From NCBI GenBank assembly GCA_002840125.1, contig PGZF01000002.1:496001-560000 (forward strand): a DNA stretch of 64,000 nt. The letters run 5' to 3'. Numbering within the stretch: position 1 is the first letter of the stretch; each line of letters opens with the position of its first letter. This document shows, one piece after another, positions 10,486 through 60,279 of this stretch. The translations under genes and the position numbers were made by a program. The notes under the pieces are model-generated. The model did not search any database. It had not been told where the DNA came from and was given only the letters and a program-made list of their open reading frames with translations. The stretch comes from Gammaproteobacteria bacterium HGW-Gammaproteobacteria-15. Lineage in GTDB: Bacteria > Pseudomonadota > Gammaproteobacteria > Enterobacterales > Alteromonadaceae.

Positions 10486-11580
10486 CTAAATAAACCAGCG
10501 CGGATCTACCGGCAAGCTAAACAGCAGCGGCGCAAACTTGTTAAAATGCGCGGCATTGGCCGGGCATTGAATATTATCCGGGTAATGTTTTTTCCAGGCA
10601 TCGTTAACCAAATACACGGTATCACCGTGCACGGCCACACCTTCAATGGCAGTTTGTACCATTTTTTCATAGGCGGGGCAGGCACTGTCGGCTGGCGTAG
10701 GCGCGTAATAGGCCATTTGTTGCACAAAGGGGGCTTGCTGCTGGCTTAAGTCAATGATCCATAGCTGGTCATCATTGCGTGCTGCTGCAACTAAATAGCC
10801 CGGGTGACCGGCTTTTTTTGCTGGCAAATAATCCAGACCGTTAATCGGGTGGTTATTGGCATCCGGTACCGGCAATATAAAGCCGCTGTCTTGTACTTTC
10901 ACATAACCCTGTTGCTGCCAAAAATCTTTGTCATACGTCGTTTTAAAAATCATCGGCGCATTGGCCTGGTTCTTCTCCAGCGCCAGGTATAAATTACCGG
11001 TAGTATCAAAGGCTAAGCCTTCAATACCATCGTTTGGTGCATTACCTACCACCGCACTTTTGGGAAACTGCACCGGCCGCACCGCAGTAATTTCGGCGCG
11101 GCTCATATTGCGGTCGGTTTCAATTCTGACCAGCAAGGTGGGGAAGTCGGTAGAGTGGGTGTCGCCGTATTTTGCTTTACAATCTGCATTTAGCTGCACA
11201 AAAGACGAGTCTTCGGTAACGGTAATAAACACGGTGTCGTCTGCTCTGTCCCATGTCAGGGATTCAAAGTCGGGGTATTTGCTAAACAGCTCGCCAAAAC
11301 AGCCACTTAACACCTGGCTTGATACCGTAATATTGAGCGGCTCAGCGTTAAGTTGTGCGGTGTGCGGGTTTATCCGCAGCAATTTATTACGCATATGCTC
11401 AGCGGCGCTGTTATCGCCTAAATGAATCAGTTCACCATGACGCCAGGTAAAACCAGAGCTCTGTGGATCGGTTAAGGTTTGCCCCTGTAAATCAGTGATC
11501 CATTTACCGGCTACCGGCTGGGTGGTGGCAAAAACGCCGGTGGTGAACAATATACTTATTAAATAAAGGCTGGCTTTCAT
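10486..11580 (-). CDS. Secreted esterase-like phytase-family protein
   Basis: 364-residue exported protein with an N-terminal signal peptide (about 1-18, cut near FAT-TQ). The body is a beta-propeller of the esterase-like activity of phytase family, recognised by GNAPNDGIEGLAFDTTGNLYLALEKNQ and a repeat of the same pattern in QTAIEGVAVHGDTVYLVNDA. The family is annotated for phosphoester or ester hydrolysis on thin evidence; the substrate here is unknown. Stands alone between the J-domain operon and folM. Confidence 0.7.
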   Translation of the reverse strand: MKASLYLISILFTTGVFATTQPVAGKWITDLQGQTLTDPQSSGFTWRHGELIHLGDNSAAEHMRNKLLRINPHTAQLNAEPLNITVSSQVLSGCFGELFSKYPDFESLTWDRADDTVFITVTEDSSFVQLNADCKAKYGDTHSTDFPTLLVRIETDRNMSRAEITAVRPVQFPKSAVVGNAPNDGIEGLAFDTTGNLYLALEKNQANAPMIFKTTYDKDFWQQQGYVKVQDSGFILPVPDANNHPINGLDYLPAKKAGHPGYLVAAARNDDQLWIIDLSQQQAPFVQQMAYYAPTPADSACPAYEKMVQTAIEGVAVHGDTVYLVNDAWKKHYPDNIQCPANAAHFNKFAPLLFSLPVDPRWFI

Positions 11581-11660
11581 AGATGTGCTTCATCATTGGT
11601 AGTTAAGGGTATTTTGCCAACCAAAGATGACAAATTAAACCCTGATCGGTTTAGCACCGG

Positions 11661-12398
11661 TTATGGCAGGTTTAATTGCCGGCCACCATCTAAGGCTATT
11701 ACTTTACCGGTCACATAGTTACTGTTTAGCAGATACTGCACGGTATTGCTCATTTCCGCTGAGCCCGGCTCACTTTGCAACAAGGACTTTTTCAACGCTT
11801 TGGCGCGATAGCTTGCATCATCATGTTGATTAAACATCAGCAGCGCCGGTGCTATGGCGTTTACTTTAACTTTGGGGGCCAGCGCCCGTGCAAAGCTATA
11901 GGTTAAATTTTCCAGCGCGGCTTTAGAAGCAGCATAAGCTATATGCTTGCTACTGCCGACGCCAGCGACAAAATCGGTTAAATGAATAATGTCACTTACA
12001 CCGTCGTAAGCTTGTAATAAAGGCGTAAAAGCGCGGTTTAGCAAATAGGGCGCTTTGGCATGTACTGCCTGCATAGCATCGTACACCGCTGCATCTGCGG
12101 CAAGTGCATCTGTGCTTACGTCGTTTAACGGTGCATCTTTTTTCCAGTCGGAGGCATTGTGGATCAGTGATCTTAAGCTGCGGTGTTGTTGTTTAACCTG
12201 TGCAATAAAACCGGCCAATTGGCTCGGATCTGTTACATCCAATTGTACACATTGCACCCCGGCATCCCGCAATTGTGCCAGGCCGGGTTTTTCGCTGCGC
12301 CAGGTGGCAATAACCTGATAACCGGCGTGTTGCAGTGCCAGAGCACAATGCAAGCCAAGACGCTGTGCCGCGCCAGTGATAATAATGTTGTTGCTCAT
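11661..12398 (-). CDS. folM: Dihydromonapterin reductase-like SDR (FolM)
   Basis: 245-residue short-chain dehydrogenase. The cofactor loop is TGAAQRLG near the N-terminus, with catalytic Tyr and Lys in HIAYAASKAALENLTYSFAR. It matches E. coli FolM closely in remembered segments (LIHNAS, DIIHLTDF, KHIAYAASKAAL, LAPKVKVNAIAPALLMFNQHDDASYR). FolM reduces dihydromonapterin to tetrahydromonapterin and has weak dihydrofolate reductase activity, using NADPH. The ATG at 12398 is preferred to an adjacent TTG at 12401; AGGA lies eight bases before it. Confidence 0.85.
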   Translation of the reverse strand: MSNNIIITGAAQRLGLHCALALQHAGYQVIATWRSEKPGLAQLRDAGVQCVQLDVTDPSQLAGFIAQVKQQHRSLRSLIHNASDWKKDAPLNDVSTDALAADAAVYDAMQAVHAKAPYLLNRAFTPLLQAYDGVSDIIHLTDFVAGVGSSKHIAYAASKAALENLTYSFARALAPKVKVNAIAPALLMFNQHDDASYRAKALKKSLLQSEPGSAEMSNTVQYLLNSNYVTGKVIALDGGRQLNLP

Positions 12399-45153: not shown

Positions 45154-45206
45154 GCGGGTGGGGTCGTCCCCGTTACAGCTGCGCTGGCGGGTCGTCCCGT
45201 CAGGCT
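45154..45206 (-). ncRNA. Guanidine-II riboswitch (mini-ykkC)
   Basis: On the minus strand the leader of sugE forms two short GC hairpins, each capped by the tetraloop ACGA: CGGG-ACGA-CCCG (45188-45199) and GGGG-ACGA-CCCC (45160-45171), 16 bases apart. Paired hairpins with ACGR loops are the defining feature of guanidine-II RNAs, which dimerise around guanidinium and free the ribosome site. The second hairpin ends about 22 bases before the start codon, within reach of the GGTG ribosome-site candidate. Confidence 0.92.
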
Positions 45207-45804: not shown

Positions 45805-45897
45805 CGACGGCAGCCCAGCTATCGTAGATGTCATTACCTGACAACCCTTAGACCTGAAGCTTTGCGTGTACTTCCTTTCGGAAGACTTGCCTTTCGA
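45805..45897 (-). ncRNA. Cyclic-di-GMP-I riboswitch (GEMM)
   Basis: Read on the minus strand: AAAGGCAAG, hairpin CTTCC-GAAA-GGAAG (GNRA tetraloop), the core ACGCAAAGC, then GGTCTAAGG (tetraloop receptor region) and a second stem closing with GATAGCTGGGCTGCCG. These parts, in this order, are the GEMM-I consensus (GGCAAA, GAAA loop, ACGCAAAGCC, CTAA, GTAGC-GGG-TACCG). About 130 nt of expression platform separate it from the DUF3718 start and include hairpins GTCGC-AAAT-GCGAT and GACATGC-TGCATGTC. Confidence 0.88.
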
Positions 45898-45905
45898 GCG
45901 AGCGC

Positions 45906-54920: not shown

Positions 54921-55460
54921 ATGGCCCAGTTTCTGGAAGTACTTATCGGCAGCTTTCTTGGCAGCAGCGTGGTAACGGCCTTGCTGGGCGTATTGTTTTT
55001 GCGGCGCAATAAAACCATTGAAACCCAGATAGAAGCCCAGTTTAGCCAGGGCTTAAAGGTGTTTGAATCTACCCGTAACTGGAAACAGCAAGCACTGGCC
55101 GAGCTGTTTGGCCCTATGCAAATGCAGTTAGAGCGCACCAAGCGCGCCTTTCAGCGCTGGGATAACAAAAACTTGCATTTAGAAGCTGAGGTAATTCAAA
55201 AGGGCAATATCGCCATTCGTGATCTGCTACTGGCCAAAGGCCATCTGATCCCAGCGCATCTTATGCTGCACGCCGTTAGCCTGATAGAACACTATGACGC
55301 CTGGATAGAAGCCTATAACCGCATTCGCAATGACAATAACCTGACCGCCCAAACCGATTTCGTTTTTGTCGGCCCGGCAGGGTATCCCTTTCCAGCCAAA
55401 GCAGAACAAGCATTTAAAGACGAGTTTCACGCTTTGCAGCAAGCGTTGTATGGCGTGTAA
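54921..55460 (+). CDS. Membrane-anchored unknown protein
   Basis: 179-residue protein with one N-terminal helix (about 5-27), a short coiled coil (NKTIETQIEAQFSQGLKVFEST), and a soluble helical domain (about 60-179) of no recognised family. GPMQMQLERTKRAFQRWDNKN and YDAWIEAYNRIRND suggest a DUF4760-like helical bundle, but this is uncertain. Lies just before the cassette array and may be its ordinary chromosomal boundary. Confidence 0.55.
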   Translation: MAQFLEVLIGSFLGSSVVTALLGVLFLRRNKTIETQIEAQFSQGLKVFESTRNWKQQALAELFGPMQMQLERTKRAFQRWDNKNLHLEAEVIQKGNIAIRDLLLAKGHLIPAHLMLHAVSLIEHYDAWIEAYNRIRNDNNLTAQTDFVFVGPAGYPFPAKAEQAFKDEFHALQQALYGV

Positions 55461-55666
55461 ATTAAAATAAATTGCATGGGTAGATAAATAGTTTTAGGTG
55501 AATTTATTGTTAGCAAGTAAATCGCAAGCTTAAACCACGCTTTCGCCAAGCAAAAGCATCCTGCTGAATAAAAATCTGTTGATTTACGTAGTGTTATTGG
55601 ATAGCTTGATTTTATTTACAAAAGATAGAGTGGAGTTTACACAGCGTGAAAGCGTGAACCGGATCG

Positions 55667-55726
55667 TTCAACAGGCGTTTAGCCGTCACTGAACAGCGTG
55701 CCGGATAAAACGCTAAAGCGTTATGC
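55667..55726 (+). repeat. Putative attC/att site at start of cassette array (weak)
   Basis: 60 bp starting GTTCAAC and ending in the core GTTATGC. Inner arms CGTTTAGC and GCTAAA-G-CG pair with one extrahelical base, as attC sites do. A gene begins 12 bases after the core with AAGGAG, the usual cassette layout. R'' and R' are not well matched, so this may be a degenerate attC. Confidence 0.45.
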
Positions 55727-55737
55727 CAAGGAGTAAT

Positions 55738-56331
55738 ATGAAAAGGCTATTTCCACTATCACTGTTATTTTTTTCGAGTTTTTTATCTGCGAAGTCTCTA
55801 TTGATTAACTCTGAACACAATATAGCGGAAGGGAATGTTGAAACCAGACCTATACAAATTGAGTGCAAGAAAGATTGCTACTTAACAACGCATCTCGTTT
55901 CAAAGAAATTTGCTGAAAACTCCAAATGGAACTCTTCCGCGATGTATGTTTTATCTGACTTTGCAGGAAATAAAGGTATCCGGTATGGCGTTAAACTAAA
56001 TGCAAAGTCAAATGAACCTGAAGTGGTTGTCGATTATTTTGATGAAGAAAAACAGACGCAAATGCAGGTATTGGCGACGTCGAAAATTGGAGACTGGGAA
56101 GGTTTTAAACTTTCTTGGAGTGAAGAGTCTTTTTCTGTTTCTTTAATAAGGCCAAAAAAGTTCGAAGGTTATAGCGTGCTGAGCGATACGGGATTAAACC
56201 ATACCGACAAATTGTTTTTCGTTCCGGAAAAACTTAACTATATGTTCATTGGGGTCAATGTTGTTCAGTATCTTGATATTGGCGACCAGAATGTAAATCA
56301 GAAGTGGTTAAAAATTGCTGAAGACAACTAA
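55738..56331 (+). CDS. Cassette gene 1: exported protein, unknown function
   Basis: 197-residue protein with a signal peptide (about 1-18, FFSSFLSA-KS). The mature part is beta-rich with two cysteines (IECKKDCYLTTHL); no family is recognised. AAGGAG precedes the ATG at 55738. It ends inside the next attC site (its stop codon is within R''), a hallmark of integron cassettes. Base composition looks more AT-rich than the surrounding chromosome. Confidence 0.65.
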   Translation: MKRLFPLSLLFFSSFLSAKSLLINSEHNIAEGNVETRPIQIECKKDCYLTTHLVSKKFAENSKWNSSAMYVLSDFAGNKGIRYGVKLNAKSNEPEVVVDYFDEEKQTQMQVLATSKIGDWEGFKLSWSEESFSVSLIRPKKFEGYSVLSDTGLNHTDKLFFVPEKLNYMFIGVNVVQYLDIGDQNVNQKWLKIAEDN

Positions 56332-56403
56332 CAATCGCCATCAAAACGCCGCTTCGCGGCTCGACTCGCAACACGTTGCTCGCGTTTGTGGCGGGCGTTA
56401 TAC
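56326..56403 (+). repeat. attC recombination site A
   Basis: 78 bp. R'' is AACTAAC and the 3' core is GTTATAC. Arms ATCGCCATCAAAACGC and GCGTTTGTGGCG pair over most of their length. The centre holds a strong GCCGCTTCGCGGC palindrome. The 3' part (GGCGGGCGTTATAC) resembles Vibrio-type repeats. Confirmed by the next site: its R'' is the exact complement of this core. Confidence 0.88.
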
Positions 56404-56416
56404 AGGTGGGTGACAT

Positions 56417-56875
56417 TTGAATTTGCCTGAAGCTCTGGGAATTACAAATTTTCAGATTGTAGGTGATGACGCTGCACTTTTGATTGCTCAAAAATGGTTA
56501 TCGGTCTTTTGCAATCATAGAACGTCATTTCACGGTATTCGAGTTGGAAAATCTTATTTATGGGACGAGATCCACAGTGACTGGCAAAATCAGGAAGCGG
56601 TTGCAAAATACGAAGAACATTTTGCGCCAAGTTACTATCTAATGCCGGATAGTTTTGGGGAATTCAAAAAGGAAATTTTTGTTACCAAAACAAAGCCATC
56701 AGGCAATTTTAAATTGTTGGATTTTCATGTGTTCCCCAAAAATTTTGCATGGTCAATGGCGTTTACACATGAAGACGGTTGGATTGGGCCAAAGTTTTTT
56801 AAACACGATAACTACTTGCAGCTAAATAAAAACAATATAAAGACATGTAATGAAATATCACGCTCGCAAGTATAA
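56417..56875 (+). CDS. Cassette gene 2: unknown soluble protein
   Basis: 152-residue soluble protein of no firmly recognised family. Aromatic-rich segments HVFPKNFAWSMAFTHEDGWIGPKF and SYLWDEIHSDW are reminiscent of small uncharacterised families found in contact-dependent immunity or cassette genes, but no assignment is safe. Starts at TTG 13 bases after the attC core with AGGTGGGTGA as ribosome site, and its stop codon lies in the R'' box of the next attC. Confidence 0.6.
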   Translation: MNLPEALGITNFQIVGDDAALLIAQKWLSVFCNHRTSFHGIRVGKSYLWDEIHSDWQNQEAVAKYEEHFAPSYYLMPDSFGEFKKEIFVTKTKPSGNFKLLDFHVFPKNFAWSMAFTHEDGWIGPKFFKHDNYLQLNKNNIKTCNEISRSQV

Positions 56876-56938
56876 CAATCCTCGTCATTCGTGGCCTGCG
56901 ACGCTCACAAGCTCGCATGCCTACGAGGGGCGTTAGCA
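56870..56938 (+). repeat. attC recombination site B
   Basis: 69 bp. R'' GTATAAC is the exact complement of the previous core GTTATAC, as expected for the two ends of one cassette. The 3' core is GTTAGCA(C). Arms CCTCGT/ACGAGG and GGCCTGCGA/TCGCATGCC pair with one mismatch. Confidence 0.92.
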
Positions 56939-56961
56939 CTGTTGGTCACTAAGGAGAAGAA

Positions 56962-57276
56962 ATGAAATCAATCTTAGTTGTTTTGAGCTTGGGCTTATTG
57001 ACGGCCTGTGCTACAGGATATCAAGCTCATACTTGGTCAGGCGGTTATAAAGATTCAAAGTTAGGTGATGACCATTATCTCGTTGAGTATTATGGCAATG
57101 GCACAACGTCGCCTGCTACCGTGGAACAGTTCTGGGCTAAGCGTGCATCTGAGCTTTGTCCAGCTGGTTTTGAAGCAGTTAACAATAATACAGGCGCTAC
57201 TGATGGCGGTATTTTTATTGGTGGTGCTGTGTCTATCGACCATCCATGGAAAAAAGCAAAAATCAAATGCAAGTAG
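56962..57276 (+). CDS. Cassette gene 3: small lipoprotein
   Basis: 104-residue lipoprotein with lipobox LLTAC (Cys about 16). The mature part GGYKDSKLGDDHYLVEYYGNGTTSPATVEQFWAKRASELCPAGFEAV resembles the CC0125/CC1285 group of small bacterial lipoproteins (pattern GY.D..L....Y.V.F.GNG..S). Function unknown. AAGGAG ribosome site 10 bases before ATG; follows the attC B core by about 24 bases. Confidence 0.7.
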   Translation: MKSILVVLSLGLLTACATGYQAHTWSGGYKDSKLGDDHYLVEYYGNGTTSPATVEQFWAKRASELCPAGFEAVNNNTGATDGGIFIGGAVSIDHPWKKAKIKCK

Positions 57277-57594
57277 TCGGTGCTAACACATATGAGTCTT
57301 CTCGGAGGCAATAAGTAAAACCGCTCTTCTGACCGCGTTAGCGGCCAGGCTGTTGTCCATCAGCAAGATAGACTGCTTTATTTGCCATCATGGTTGCCAG
57401 GCGATAGCTTGGAACGCACACATAAAGAGCGACGCGTGAAAATTAGTTCCACAATAGTACGAATGTTGAGTAGTATAAAATTTCCTTTGGCCTTCTCTTT
57501 TTGGGGTTCGTCGCCTTCCAGCTTAGCCAATCTGGCTGGACTGGACAGAAGGCTCAATCAGTATCAATGCAATTAAAGGGATGGTTTTTCTGAC
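57277..57594. other. 318-bp stretch between cassette genes 3 and 4
   Basis: Contains site C (57280-57343) and then about 250 bp with no convincing gene. A palindrome CCGC-GTTA-GCGG (57333-57344) straddles the core of site C. A short open frame at 57382-57576 lacks a ribosome site and is probably not a gene; it may be a decayed cassette. Confidence 0.4.
57280..57343 (+). repeat. attC-like site C (5' half firm, 3' half uncertain)
   Basis: R'' GTGCTAAC is the exact complement of the attC B core GTTAGCAC, so the cassette 3 boundary is real. A candidate 3' core GTTAGCG lies at 57337. Its first 43 bp (57284-57326) recur at 57973-58015 with 38 of 43 identities. Inner arms are not clearly paired, so the site may be degenerate. 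Confidence 0.6.
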
Positions 57595-57975
57595 ATGAAA
57601 GTTTTCGATCTAAAAGCATATGAAGAGAAAATTGATAGGATCATAGCTCAATCGTTTTCGGCTTCACTTATGTCTAATGCCAAGTGGCGTAAGCTATTTT
57701 CTGAAATATCAAAAAGTGGTTTTGCGAAACCAAGTATGAAGTTAAAGCGTGTTAGTCGAGAAGATGCATACAATACCTATCGTCCCGAGCTGGAAGATAT
57801 TGAAGAGCTTTGGGTAGCTGAAGGTAAAAATGACTGTAATTATTTTTACAAAGAAATTGAGTGGGTTGAATTATTCGGATCCTCCTCTGAAATCAATAGT
57901 GTGCTAGCTAAAATTGGCCAATTTAAATGCTTTGATACTGAGCTTGGTGTTTTAGTATATGGCCACGAAATATAA
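57595..57975 (+). CDS. Cassette gene 4: DUF6678-like unknown protein
   Basis: 126-residue soluble protein. The LMSNAKWRKLFSEISKSG block and YFYKEIEWVELFGSS recall DUF6678-type small proteins (NxxKWRxLF near the N-terminus, IEWVEI near the middle), a tentative match from memory. AAAGGGA lies upstream of the ATG. Its stop codon abuts the TAAC of repeat D. Confidence 0.55.
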   Translation: MKVFDLKAYEEKIDRIIAQSFSASLMSNAKWRKLFSEISKSGFAKPSMKLKRVSREDAYNTYRPELEDIEELWVAEGKNDCNYFYKEIEWVELFGSSSEINSVLAKIGQFKCFDTELGVLVYGHEI

Positions 57976-58055
57976 CACATATGAGCCTTCCCGGAGTCAA
58001 CAGGTAAAACCGCTCACTTCGTTCGTTGGAGCAGGCTAAAGCCTGCGCCTTAGCT
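57973..58055 (+). repeat. attC-like site D
   Basis: Starts TATAAC ACATATGAG directly at the stop of gene 4; first 43 bp match site C (38 of 43). A second part holds AGGCT-AAAGCCT palindromic sequence and ends near GCCTTAGCTT, which departs from the GTT core (CTT). A decayed or variant attC. Confidence 0.5.
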
Positions 58056-58084: not shown

Positions 58085-58573
58085 TTGCCAACAATCAGCG
58101 AGATAAAAGAAGAAGCGTTTAAGTTCAGAGGACTGCTTGAGAAGTGTGATAAATCGAATACGAGACTTGTAATTGATTGTTTTCCAATTATGAGTTGTAA
58201 ATTATCCGCAATGCTTTTGTCTTATCATTTTATTGAATTATGGCCAGATATCGAAGTTCAGGGGGTTAGTGCCGTCACTGGCGGGAACGATCAAATAACG
58301 CACTATTGGCTCGAAATTGATGAAGTTGTAATTGATATAACCGTGGACCAATATAACCTGATAAAGGGTAGTGATCTAAACAAAGAAATTATTAAAAATC
58401 GTCCCTTTGAGGCAGTTCACGTTTCTAATAAAAACGAAAGCTATCTTTATAAATTGTTTAGAGTTAGAGAACGCGAGTCTCTTATCTACGGTTTTCCTGC
58501 AATTGGCGAAGATTTTATTGATGATATGGTGCTTGGCTACAATCAGCTGCTGAATCATGCAGCATATACATAA
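58085..58573 (+). CDS. Cassette gene 5: possible papain-fold (C-H-D) protein
   Basis: 162-residue soluble protein. Spacing of Cys38 (FPIMSCKLSAMLLSYHF), His73 (NDQITHYWLEID) and Asp84 (VVIDITVDQY) matches the Cys-His-Asp order of small transglutaminase/papain-like proteins, and the HYWLEI..VVIDIT.DQ motif is common in small mobile genes. Enzyme activity is not proven. Starts at TTG 29 bases after site D with CAGGGA upstream; no ATG alternative nearby. Confidence 0.55.
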   Translation: MPTISEIKEEAFKFRGLLEKCDKSNTRLVIDCFPIMSCKLSAMLLSYHFIELWPDIEVQGVSAVTGGNDQITHYWLEIDEVVIDITVDQYNLIKGSDLNKEIIKNRPFEAVHVSNKNESYLYKLFRVRERESLIYGFPAIGEDFIDDMVLGYNQLLNHAAYT

Positions 58574-59274: not shown

Positions 59275-60279
59275 CTATAAACCGGCTTGCTCCAGTAAGG
59301 TTGCCATATGCTGCAGTGCTGTTAAGCCCTGAATATCGGTAGCCTGCAGTGGCACTTTGTAACGCGGCAGTTTGGCAAAATCGTGCTCTATCTGGGCTAA
59401 ATGCACTTTTTCCTGCGCACGTCGGGCGGCGAGGAAGTCGCCATCGGCGTTGTCGGGTAATATGCGGTTTACTACCAAACCTGCCAGCGGCAGTTTTTCC
59501 TGCAATAAGCTTTGTACTGCGCGGCCGGTTTCAAGTATTGGCAGTTTTTCTGGCGTTAATACAAACAGCAGGGCAGTGCGGCTGCTGTCGGTTAACACTT
59601 CGCGGGTACGTTGCAACAAGCGCTGGCGGGCCAGTAAGGCTTCGGTAATGGCTTTATTGCGTGCATCCATACCATCGGTAGCGTTTTGATTAGGATCAGC
59701 CAGCGGGTTGTCGACATCGCGCCCGGCTTTGGGCGTTAAGTGGCCCAGTACGTCACCGAGTTTTTCTGAGCGCTTATTGGCATTCAGCAGGCCCTGCGTC
59801 CAGGCTGCCATGGCTTCGGGTAAGCTTAATAGCCGCAGGGTATGGCCGGTAGGGGCGGTATCGAAAATCACTAAGTCGTAGTCTTTTAACCCAAGTTCAA
59901 TCACGTTAGCAATGCGTTCAAGCATCGCCGCTTCCTGCGCACCGGGAGATTGGCGGGTTAAACGCATCTGCCGTTCAATTTCGCTGTACATTTCGGGCCG
60001 GGTAAAGCGCTTTAACTGGGCGGTAACTTTGGCCAGATGTTGCTCTACCTCGCGGTCCGGGTCTAGTTCTAAACCGTCTAAATCAGGGGCTAACCGGGTA
60101 ATATTGTCGCCAATTTCACGGTCAAAAGCATCGGCCAGGCTGTGTGCCGGATCGGTGGAAACCAGCAAAACCTTTTTGCCGCGCTGGCTTGCCAGCACTG
60201 CCATTGCCGAGGAGGTCGTGGTTTTACCCACACCGCCTTTGCCACCAAACAGCAGCACACGTTTGTCGGTTAACAACAT
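59275..60279 (-). CDS. ArsA/Get3-family ATPase
   Basis: 334-residue soluble ATPase with a single nucleotide-binding domain: deviant Walker A FGGKGGVGKTTTSSAMAV (signature lysine at about 14), switch I VSTDPAHSLADAF, switch II DTAPTGHTLRLLSLP. Single-domain ArsA-like proteins resemble Get3, which carries tail-anchored proteins. No arsenite genes are nearby. Instead it overlaps a cory-CC-star gene and cstA. The short C-terminal half lacks an obvious methionine-rich groove. Confidence 0.88.
   Translation of the reverse strand: MLLTDKRVLLFGGKGGVGKTTTSSAMAVLASQRGKKVLLVSTDPAHSLADAFDREIGDNITRLAPDLDGLELDPDREVEQHLAKVTAQLKRFTRPEMYSEIERQMRLTRQSPGAQEAAMLERIANVIELGLKDYDLVIFDTAPTGHTLRLLSLPEAMAAWTQGLLNANKRSEKLGDVLGHLTPKAGRDVDNPLADPNQNATDGMDARNKAITEALLARQRLLQRTREVLTDSSRTALLFVLTPEKLPILETGRAVQSLLQEKLPLAGLVVNRILPDNADGDFLAARRAQEKVHLAQIEHDFAKLPRYKVPLQATDIQGLTALQHMATLLEQAGL

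Follow-up and report, generated by a model that had tools for sequence, protein, structure and literature searches.

The stretch analysed here, called the window below, is 64,000 nucleotides of contig PGZF01000002.1 (positions 496,001 to 560,000, forward strand) of Gammaproteobacteria bacterium HGW-Gammaproteobacteria-15 (assembly GCA_002840125.1), which a kinship comparison places in the same genus as Rheinheimera oceanensis. Between two conserved genes it holds a small array of integron-type cassettes without an integrase gene (intI). A sequence-only reading had described it as a cluster of attC sites lacking an integrase (CALIN). By the usual definition (at least two attC sites, no neighbouring intI) the name applies, and with the CALINs of IntegronFinder the array shares two attC sites in the same orientation, small unknown genes and no intI nearby. 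What the name misses is that the array, unlike a typical CALIN, is headed by a recognisable remnant of an attI site at an orthologous position. We think it likely that the locus is a decayed satellite integron, i.e. one that lost intI, kept attI, later exchanged cassettes in trans and then decayed. Its features are as follows (IS, insertion sequence; aa, amino acids).

54921..55460, +, conserved gene on the flank, 179 aa, without a family hit; adjoins the integron site in relatives
55461..55659, +, attI leader and attI remnant, type A, crossover core lost; directly abuts the stop of gene 54921-55460
55666..55726, +, degenerate attC-like stretch replacing the attI core (by eye; weak hairpin 55664-55724, z score -1.5)
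55738..56331, +, cassette 1 gene, 197 aa, no known function
56326..56403, +, attC 1 (64.2 bits, E 3.6e-13); up to 100% identity over 72 bp to attC sites of relatives
56417..56875, +, gene of cassette 2, 152 aa from a TTG start; resembles DUF4275 weakly, below cut-off
56870..56938, +, attC 2 (32.8 bits, E 1.2e-5)
56962..57276, +, gene of cassette 3, lipoprotein of the CC0125/CC1285 type, 104 aa (NF047637 over cut-off, E 2.3e-12)
57280..57287, +, R'' of an interrupted attC 3 of which just the left half is present
57284..57573, -, internally deleted IS110/IS1111-type remnant (91% identity over 57284-57424 and 85% over 57424-57573 to a fuller copy)
57595..57975, +, gene 4, 126 aa, DUF6678 (PF20383, E 2.3e-7, over cut-off)
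57973..58015, -, another end piece of this IS, following the TAAC of presumed attC 4 (88% identical to 57284-57326)
58085..58573, +, gene 5, 162 aa, last of the presumed array; weak YunG match (E 5e-4), below cut-off
59275..60279, -, conserved gene flanking the variable region on the other side, presumably, judged by its sequence, for an ArsA-type ATPase; flank conservation resumes at about 59271

attC sites and cassettes of the window

Plain motif-and-fold scans for attC were either too strict or too loose and were dropped for a covariance model. This model, R1, was built on 24 seed sites supplied by a looser fold scan, eight from an array on contig C1 of this genome and 16 from relatives, none from the window. 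In its alignment 97.9% of the base-pair cells are paired and both sides vary in 7 of 12 pairs; pairing drops to 26-41% when the partner is shifted by one to three columns. Run over the whole 64 kb with filters off, R1 returned exactly two attC sites, at 56326-56402 and 56870-56937, with the scores listed above. Both are far above the noise, where the third-ranked hit lies (10.9 bits, E 2.3), and the two positions proposed from the letters are thereby borne out by a model built without them. Within the array nothing reached the gathering score in an Rfam scan, and the attC-like stretch at 55666-55726 does not match R1.

The cassette test, i.e. complementarity at the cassette boundary between R' and the next R'', holds at two of the three testable junctions, the two for which it had been claimed: core GTTATAC (56397-56403) with GTATAAC (56870-56876), and core GTTAGCAC (56932-56939) with the R'' GTGCTAAC (57280-57287). 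The failure is cassette 1. Stop codons had been placed inside R'', which is the case for genes 1 and 2 but not for gene 3, whose TAG (57274-57276) precedes it. Likewise, the third site has the firm left half that had been noted, its R'' being intact, but it is not a plain third attC: R'' runs into the 290-bp IS110/IS1111-type remnant, and beyond these two no right half is recognisable. As single-stranded DNA, the bottom strands of attC 1 and attC 2 form the expected long hairpins (z scores -1.8, equalled by 10 of 200 shuffles, and -3.4, by 2 of 200). But the top strands fold almost equally well, so that folding adds no strand preference. Scans for promoters and for terminators gave numbers expected by chance (8, with a mean of 10.7, and 4, with 3.3, respectively).

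The fuller copy of the IS interrupts an attC of the C1 array (L009:13823-15493). Pieces of its transposase match PF02371 over the cut-off and PF01548 below it, and the element stands next to TAAC at two sites. IS1111-family elements that target attC (ISKpn4, ISPst6) likewise place an IS110/IS1111-type element at one attC end, according to the available text of PMC11187229; the window differs in that all it retains is a remnant with an internal deletion and an end fragment, and the fuller C1 copy in having a split transposase frame. The element and its fragments give ten matches in the genome, the two of the window included, several of them near attC clusters. Further matches are at C9:291547, C8:30043, C1:1069696, C1:86745 and C7:277543.

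For the product of cassette 2 we found 23 homologues (best 90%) from the sources jgi, ena and lgn, one cluster being named Pseudoalteromonas. Six gene products were searched with PADLOC and none matched at E 0.1. A gene order fixed in many unrelated genomes, which would speak against a cassette array, was not seen: among the matches listed for the DNA of genes 1-3 in 30 other genomes of the genus, none lies outside attC. The cassettes of the window are probably fixed now.

The attI remnant, its orthologous locus and the integrase of the genome

The 199 bases of attI in the window (55461-55659) are 86-90% identical to the attI regions found at the same place in three relatives (G014, G015 and G009). 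The homology ends at 55659; the core, which these three possess and which reads CCAAACTATAAAGCTGTTA in G014 and G009, would follow about 20 bp further on. Because it stops before the core, the attI of the window is, judged by its sequence, probably dead as a landing site. The locus is not a complete chromosomal integron: no intI adjoins attI, the crossover core is not intact, and the attI leader joins gene 54921-55460 directly. In Rheinheimera baltica DSM 14885 (G016), a full intI, with its tyrosine, lies between the orthologue of this gene (98 bp off) and attI.

The flanking gene 54921-55460 is present in 9 of 31 genomes of the genus; five have an intI-less junction, one has intI and three have neither. 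The source genome (G000), G009, G014 and G015 share the intI-less junction, of which G044 has a stub of 51-55 bp. What follows the junction is not shared, the first 700 bp of the array being unrelated in ten of ten pairs at this site (site 3 of the survey below). In the three relatives with the core the first cassettes are flush with it and pass the cassette test, over 9 nt in G014, 12 nt in G015 and 7 nt in G009 (by eye). Two further observations concern this region. In G022, at the same chromosomal site (L107, contig C18, about 11350-12280, minus strand), an apparent patatin-like phospholipase gene and its neighbours replace the cassettes (by eye). A 41-bp part of the attI leader (window 55504-55544) recurs alone, twice each on C6 of G002 and C14 of G009, and on C8 and C10 of G044 and C1 of G018.

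The sequence-only reading saw no intI in the window, and tblastn with IntI (E 1e-8) confirms this for the whole 64 kb. The search elsewhere in the genome that it had proposed yields one, on contig C1 (L003:1189-2154; C1:415547-416512), the only match to TIGR02249 over the cut-off (453 bits, cut-off 265 bits). Its product aligns over its full length to IntI4 (2a3v), and a cassette array lies upstream of the gene. Residue 302 is a cysteine, aligned to the IntI4 tyrosine that we take to be the catalytic nucleophile. The motif around this residue could be read in 111 loci, 108 with tyrosine (some holding the same gene twice) and three with cysteine, which are one gene; five further rows lack it. 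A sister of the C1 gene, 97% identical, has tyrosine at this position. The C1 integrase is, on this residue, probably dead. Genome-wide, where the model scored 150 of the 1011 first-look candidates, it gave at least 34 attC sites at E up to 1, of which 12 belong to the C1 array and 22 are spread over 12 other places, including the window.

Orphan attI sites in Rheinheimera

The two types of attI (A and B) were searched over the 31 genomes of the genus, and the fetched loci were then analysed by script. Of the 68 places recorded, 9 adjoin an intact intI, 3 adjoin a broken one and 56 have no intI within 1.6 kb; since the last, the orphans, were chosen on purpose and many intI-attached places were left out, the counts are biased and no ratio is drawn from them. 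The 56 orphans are distributed over 23 of the 31 genomes. We assigned places to one site when the alignment of their upstream flanks comes within 160 bp of attI. In this way 38 orphans fall in nine sites (of 6, 6, 5, 5, 5, 3, 3, 3 and 2 members) and 18 stand alone; site 3, with five members, includes the window. All 70 within-site pairs, not just the linking ones, align in this manner, with 74-96% identity over 684-1512 bp.

Over the first 700 bp downstream of the core, 66 of these 70 pairs have no match and the other four share 19-60 bp. An earlier comparison, in six groups, gave on average 76-89% identity for the 110 bases before the core and 22-32% for the 300 bases after it, with sites 2 and 7 merged, site 6 left out, the window and G044 left out of site 3, and no unrelated DNA as control. 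At all nine sites, several species carry different cassettes behind a shared intI-less attI junction, which is how we would recognise a docking site served in trans.

An attC hit lies within 3 kb downstream of 36 of the 56 orphans. Among the testable orphans, 22 of 42 have a first-cassette R'' that matches the core over at least 8 nt; the same holds for 5 of 8 intI-attached places and 1 of 3 with a broken intI, against 164 of 2720 (6%) when cores are swapped. This test left out 15 of the 68 places (13 without a GTT core and two with arrays cut by contig ends), and it counts the window among the misses, its true core being deleted and its core consequently misplaced.

To ask where intI might have been, 139 flanks downstream of intI were compared with the 56 orphan flanks. 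Matching flanks lead to an intI for four sites: site 3 (in R. baltica), site 4 (in R. nanhaiensis, R. pleomorphica and others), site 5 (on C47 of R. baltica, where the gene has an internal stop) and site 9 (in two metagenome-assembled genomes outside the genus set, about 1.4 kb away). This fits a loss of intI at these sites. None of the 139 flanks matches sites 1, 2, 6, 7 or 8. Besides loss, attI segments were likely replaced or moved. Three observations lead to this view. At site 4, the same flank carries attI-A in three genomes (L241, L252, L257) and attI-B in two (L315, G018 C1:43k; L317, G044 C11), which by sequence is a platform type swapped in place. At the PrpF locus, IntA with attI-A and IntB with attI-B alternate. 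The neighbour gene of site 7 is present in 18 of the 31 genomes, with an attI within 1.5 kb in 3 of the 18.

Two observations made during this survey are recorded here. A copy of attI-A at L341 3865-4048 (G046 C7:323000-335000) lies about 4 kb from a partial intI (C7:331027-331506) and is perhaps part of an integron split by insertion. A stretch poor in open reading frames (L009:19040-19330; L106, about 80-385) ends in a 28-bp piece, bases 1-28 of the attI-B query, that recurs across the genus, often in arrays.

Apart from the array, the window holds two riboswitches over the Rfam gathering score, c-di-GMP-I (45806-45901) and guanidine-II (mini-ykkC; 45159-45203), both on the minus strand and 600 bases apart.

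Proposed history of the locus and alternatives

As a decayed satellite integron, the locus would once have had intI, attI and cassettes together, as an integron flanked by gene 54921-55460 and the ArsA-type gene. Comparison between species suggests that intI was removed in an ancestor common to at least four other Rheinheimera species, by a deletion that would have run from just past the stop of gene 54921-55460 to about 10 bases before the start of intI and left attI in place. Cassette exchange at attI would have continued after this loss, because the first cassettes are unrelated between species that share the junction. If intI was lost before this exchange, the integrase would have acted from another locus, most likely the integron beside PrpF. 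In the source genome decay would have followed: the attI no longer has its core, two attC sites contain IS110/IS1111-type remnants, and the sole remaining integrase has, in the assembly, a cysteine for the nucleophile tyrosine, with which it would have lost its function. For the genus, the simplest reading of the sequences is that orphan attI sites are integrase-less docking sites which would be refilled in trans, and it suggests that recombinases encoded elsewhere have served the recombinase-less sites of related bacteria. Whether this extends to whole chromosomes we regard as an even question: those of Rheinheimera may be distributed integrons, in which one to three integrase genes serve many dispersed orphan attI sites that stay in place across the divergence of the genus and undergo complete cassette turnover, a CALIN such as that of the window being a decaying outpost.

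Several points weigh against this history. The first junction of the window itself fails the cassette test (GTTATGC at 55720, R'' AACTAAC). G002, G007 and G022 have gene 54921-55460 without an adjacent attI or intI, so that the site is not uniformly inherited. The nearest intI-attached attI is not the R. baltica one at the orthologous locus (76% over 133 bp) but that of the PrpF locus of G002 (C11), with 86% identity, and because of this it is possible that the attI segment was transferred from the PrpF locus to the site of the window. Differences between cassettes could stem in part from recombination of whole loci between strains. Lastly, Cys302 could be an assembly error.

An unlikely alternative, though the best of those considered, is plain degradation, in which intI was lost, the cassettes are relics and nothing acted in trans afterwards. 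The decay of the window (core lost, attC sites broken by IS remnants) would be expected from it, as would the 20 of 56 orphans without an attC hit within 3 kb and the 20 of 42 testable ones without an 8-nt R'' match. But the same intI-less junction occurs in five species with unrelated first cassettes, and likewise at site 4, which needs exchange after the loss; and sites 1, 2, 6, 7 and 8 match none of the compared intI flanks.

The main rival to the action of IntI in trans is homologous recombination, between loci or between strains, which would have moved cassettes or attI-headed arrays. The attI regions of different loci are about 72-86% identical over about 200 bp, parts of the attI of G015 and G009 resemble that of the PrpF locus, and site 4 has either type of attI, all of which this explanation accommodates. 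Such identity over 200 bp is nevertheless a poor substrate for RecA, and the excess of core-matching R'' in orphans (22 of 42) over swapped pairs (6%) is a mark of IntI. We consider this explanation rather doubtful. It is most improbable that an active integrase inserted the cassettes at a chance secondary (attG-type) site, an event known from experimental cassette libraries (as cited in the available text of PMC12444791): the array starts with a 199-bp attI leader, in the right orientation and at a place orthologous in other species, which contradicts it.

That CALINs are degraded integrons has been proposed before, in a genome survey that counted 2961 CALINs and 2760 complete integrons; the attI detection of IntegronFinder 2.0 is limited to class 1 (both from the available text of PMC9024848). 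A close parallel to a decayed satellite integron is the ilvD integron of Xanthomonas, with its inactivation of intI. The present case shares with it an ancestral platform, repeated loss of intI and CALINs at fixed chromosomal positions, and the Xanthomonas study states that mobilisation of CALINs in trans is possible. The difference is that here species with the same junction carry unrelated cassettes at attI. The available text (PMC12444791) does not describe attI at the remote CALINs of Xanthomonas. Shewanella likewise has dispersed attC clusters and single-attC cassettes away from intI (CALINs and SALINs, the latter single attC sites lacking an integrase), with no attI reported at them in the part of PMC9229058 at hand. 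Cassettes of classes 1 and 2 that hold truncated attI sites are described in a 2026 paper (available text of PMC12901181), and a paper on a genomic island of Rheinheimera sp. D18 mentions integrons (PMC7155750). Limited searches of open-access literature (titles and starts of abstracts) found no report of conserved intI-less attI sites with cassette turnover.

Should many CALINs prove to be outposts with an attI at their head and a supply of cassettes in trans, the whole chromosome would be the functional unit of integrons. Counts of intI would then understate the capacity for cassette capture, and each outpost would be a separate expression slot. The orthologous sites described here make filling in trans directly testable.
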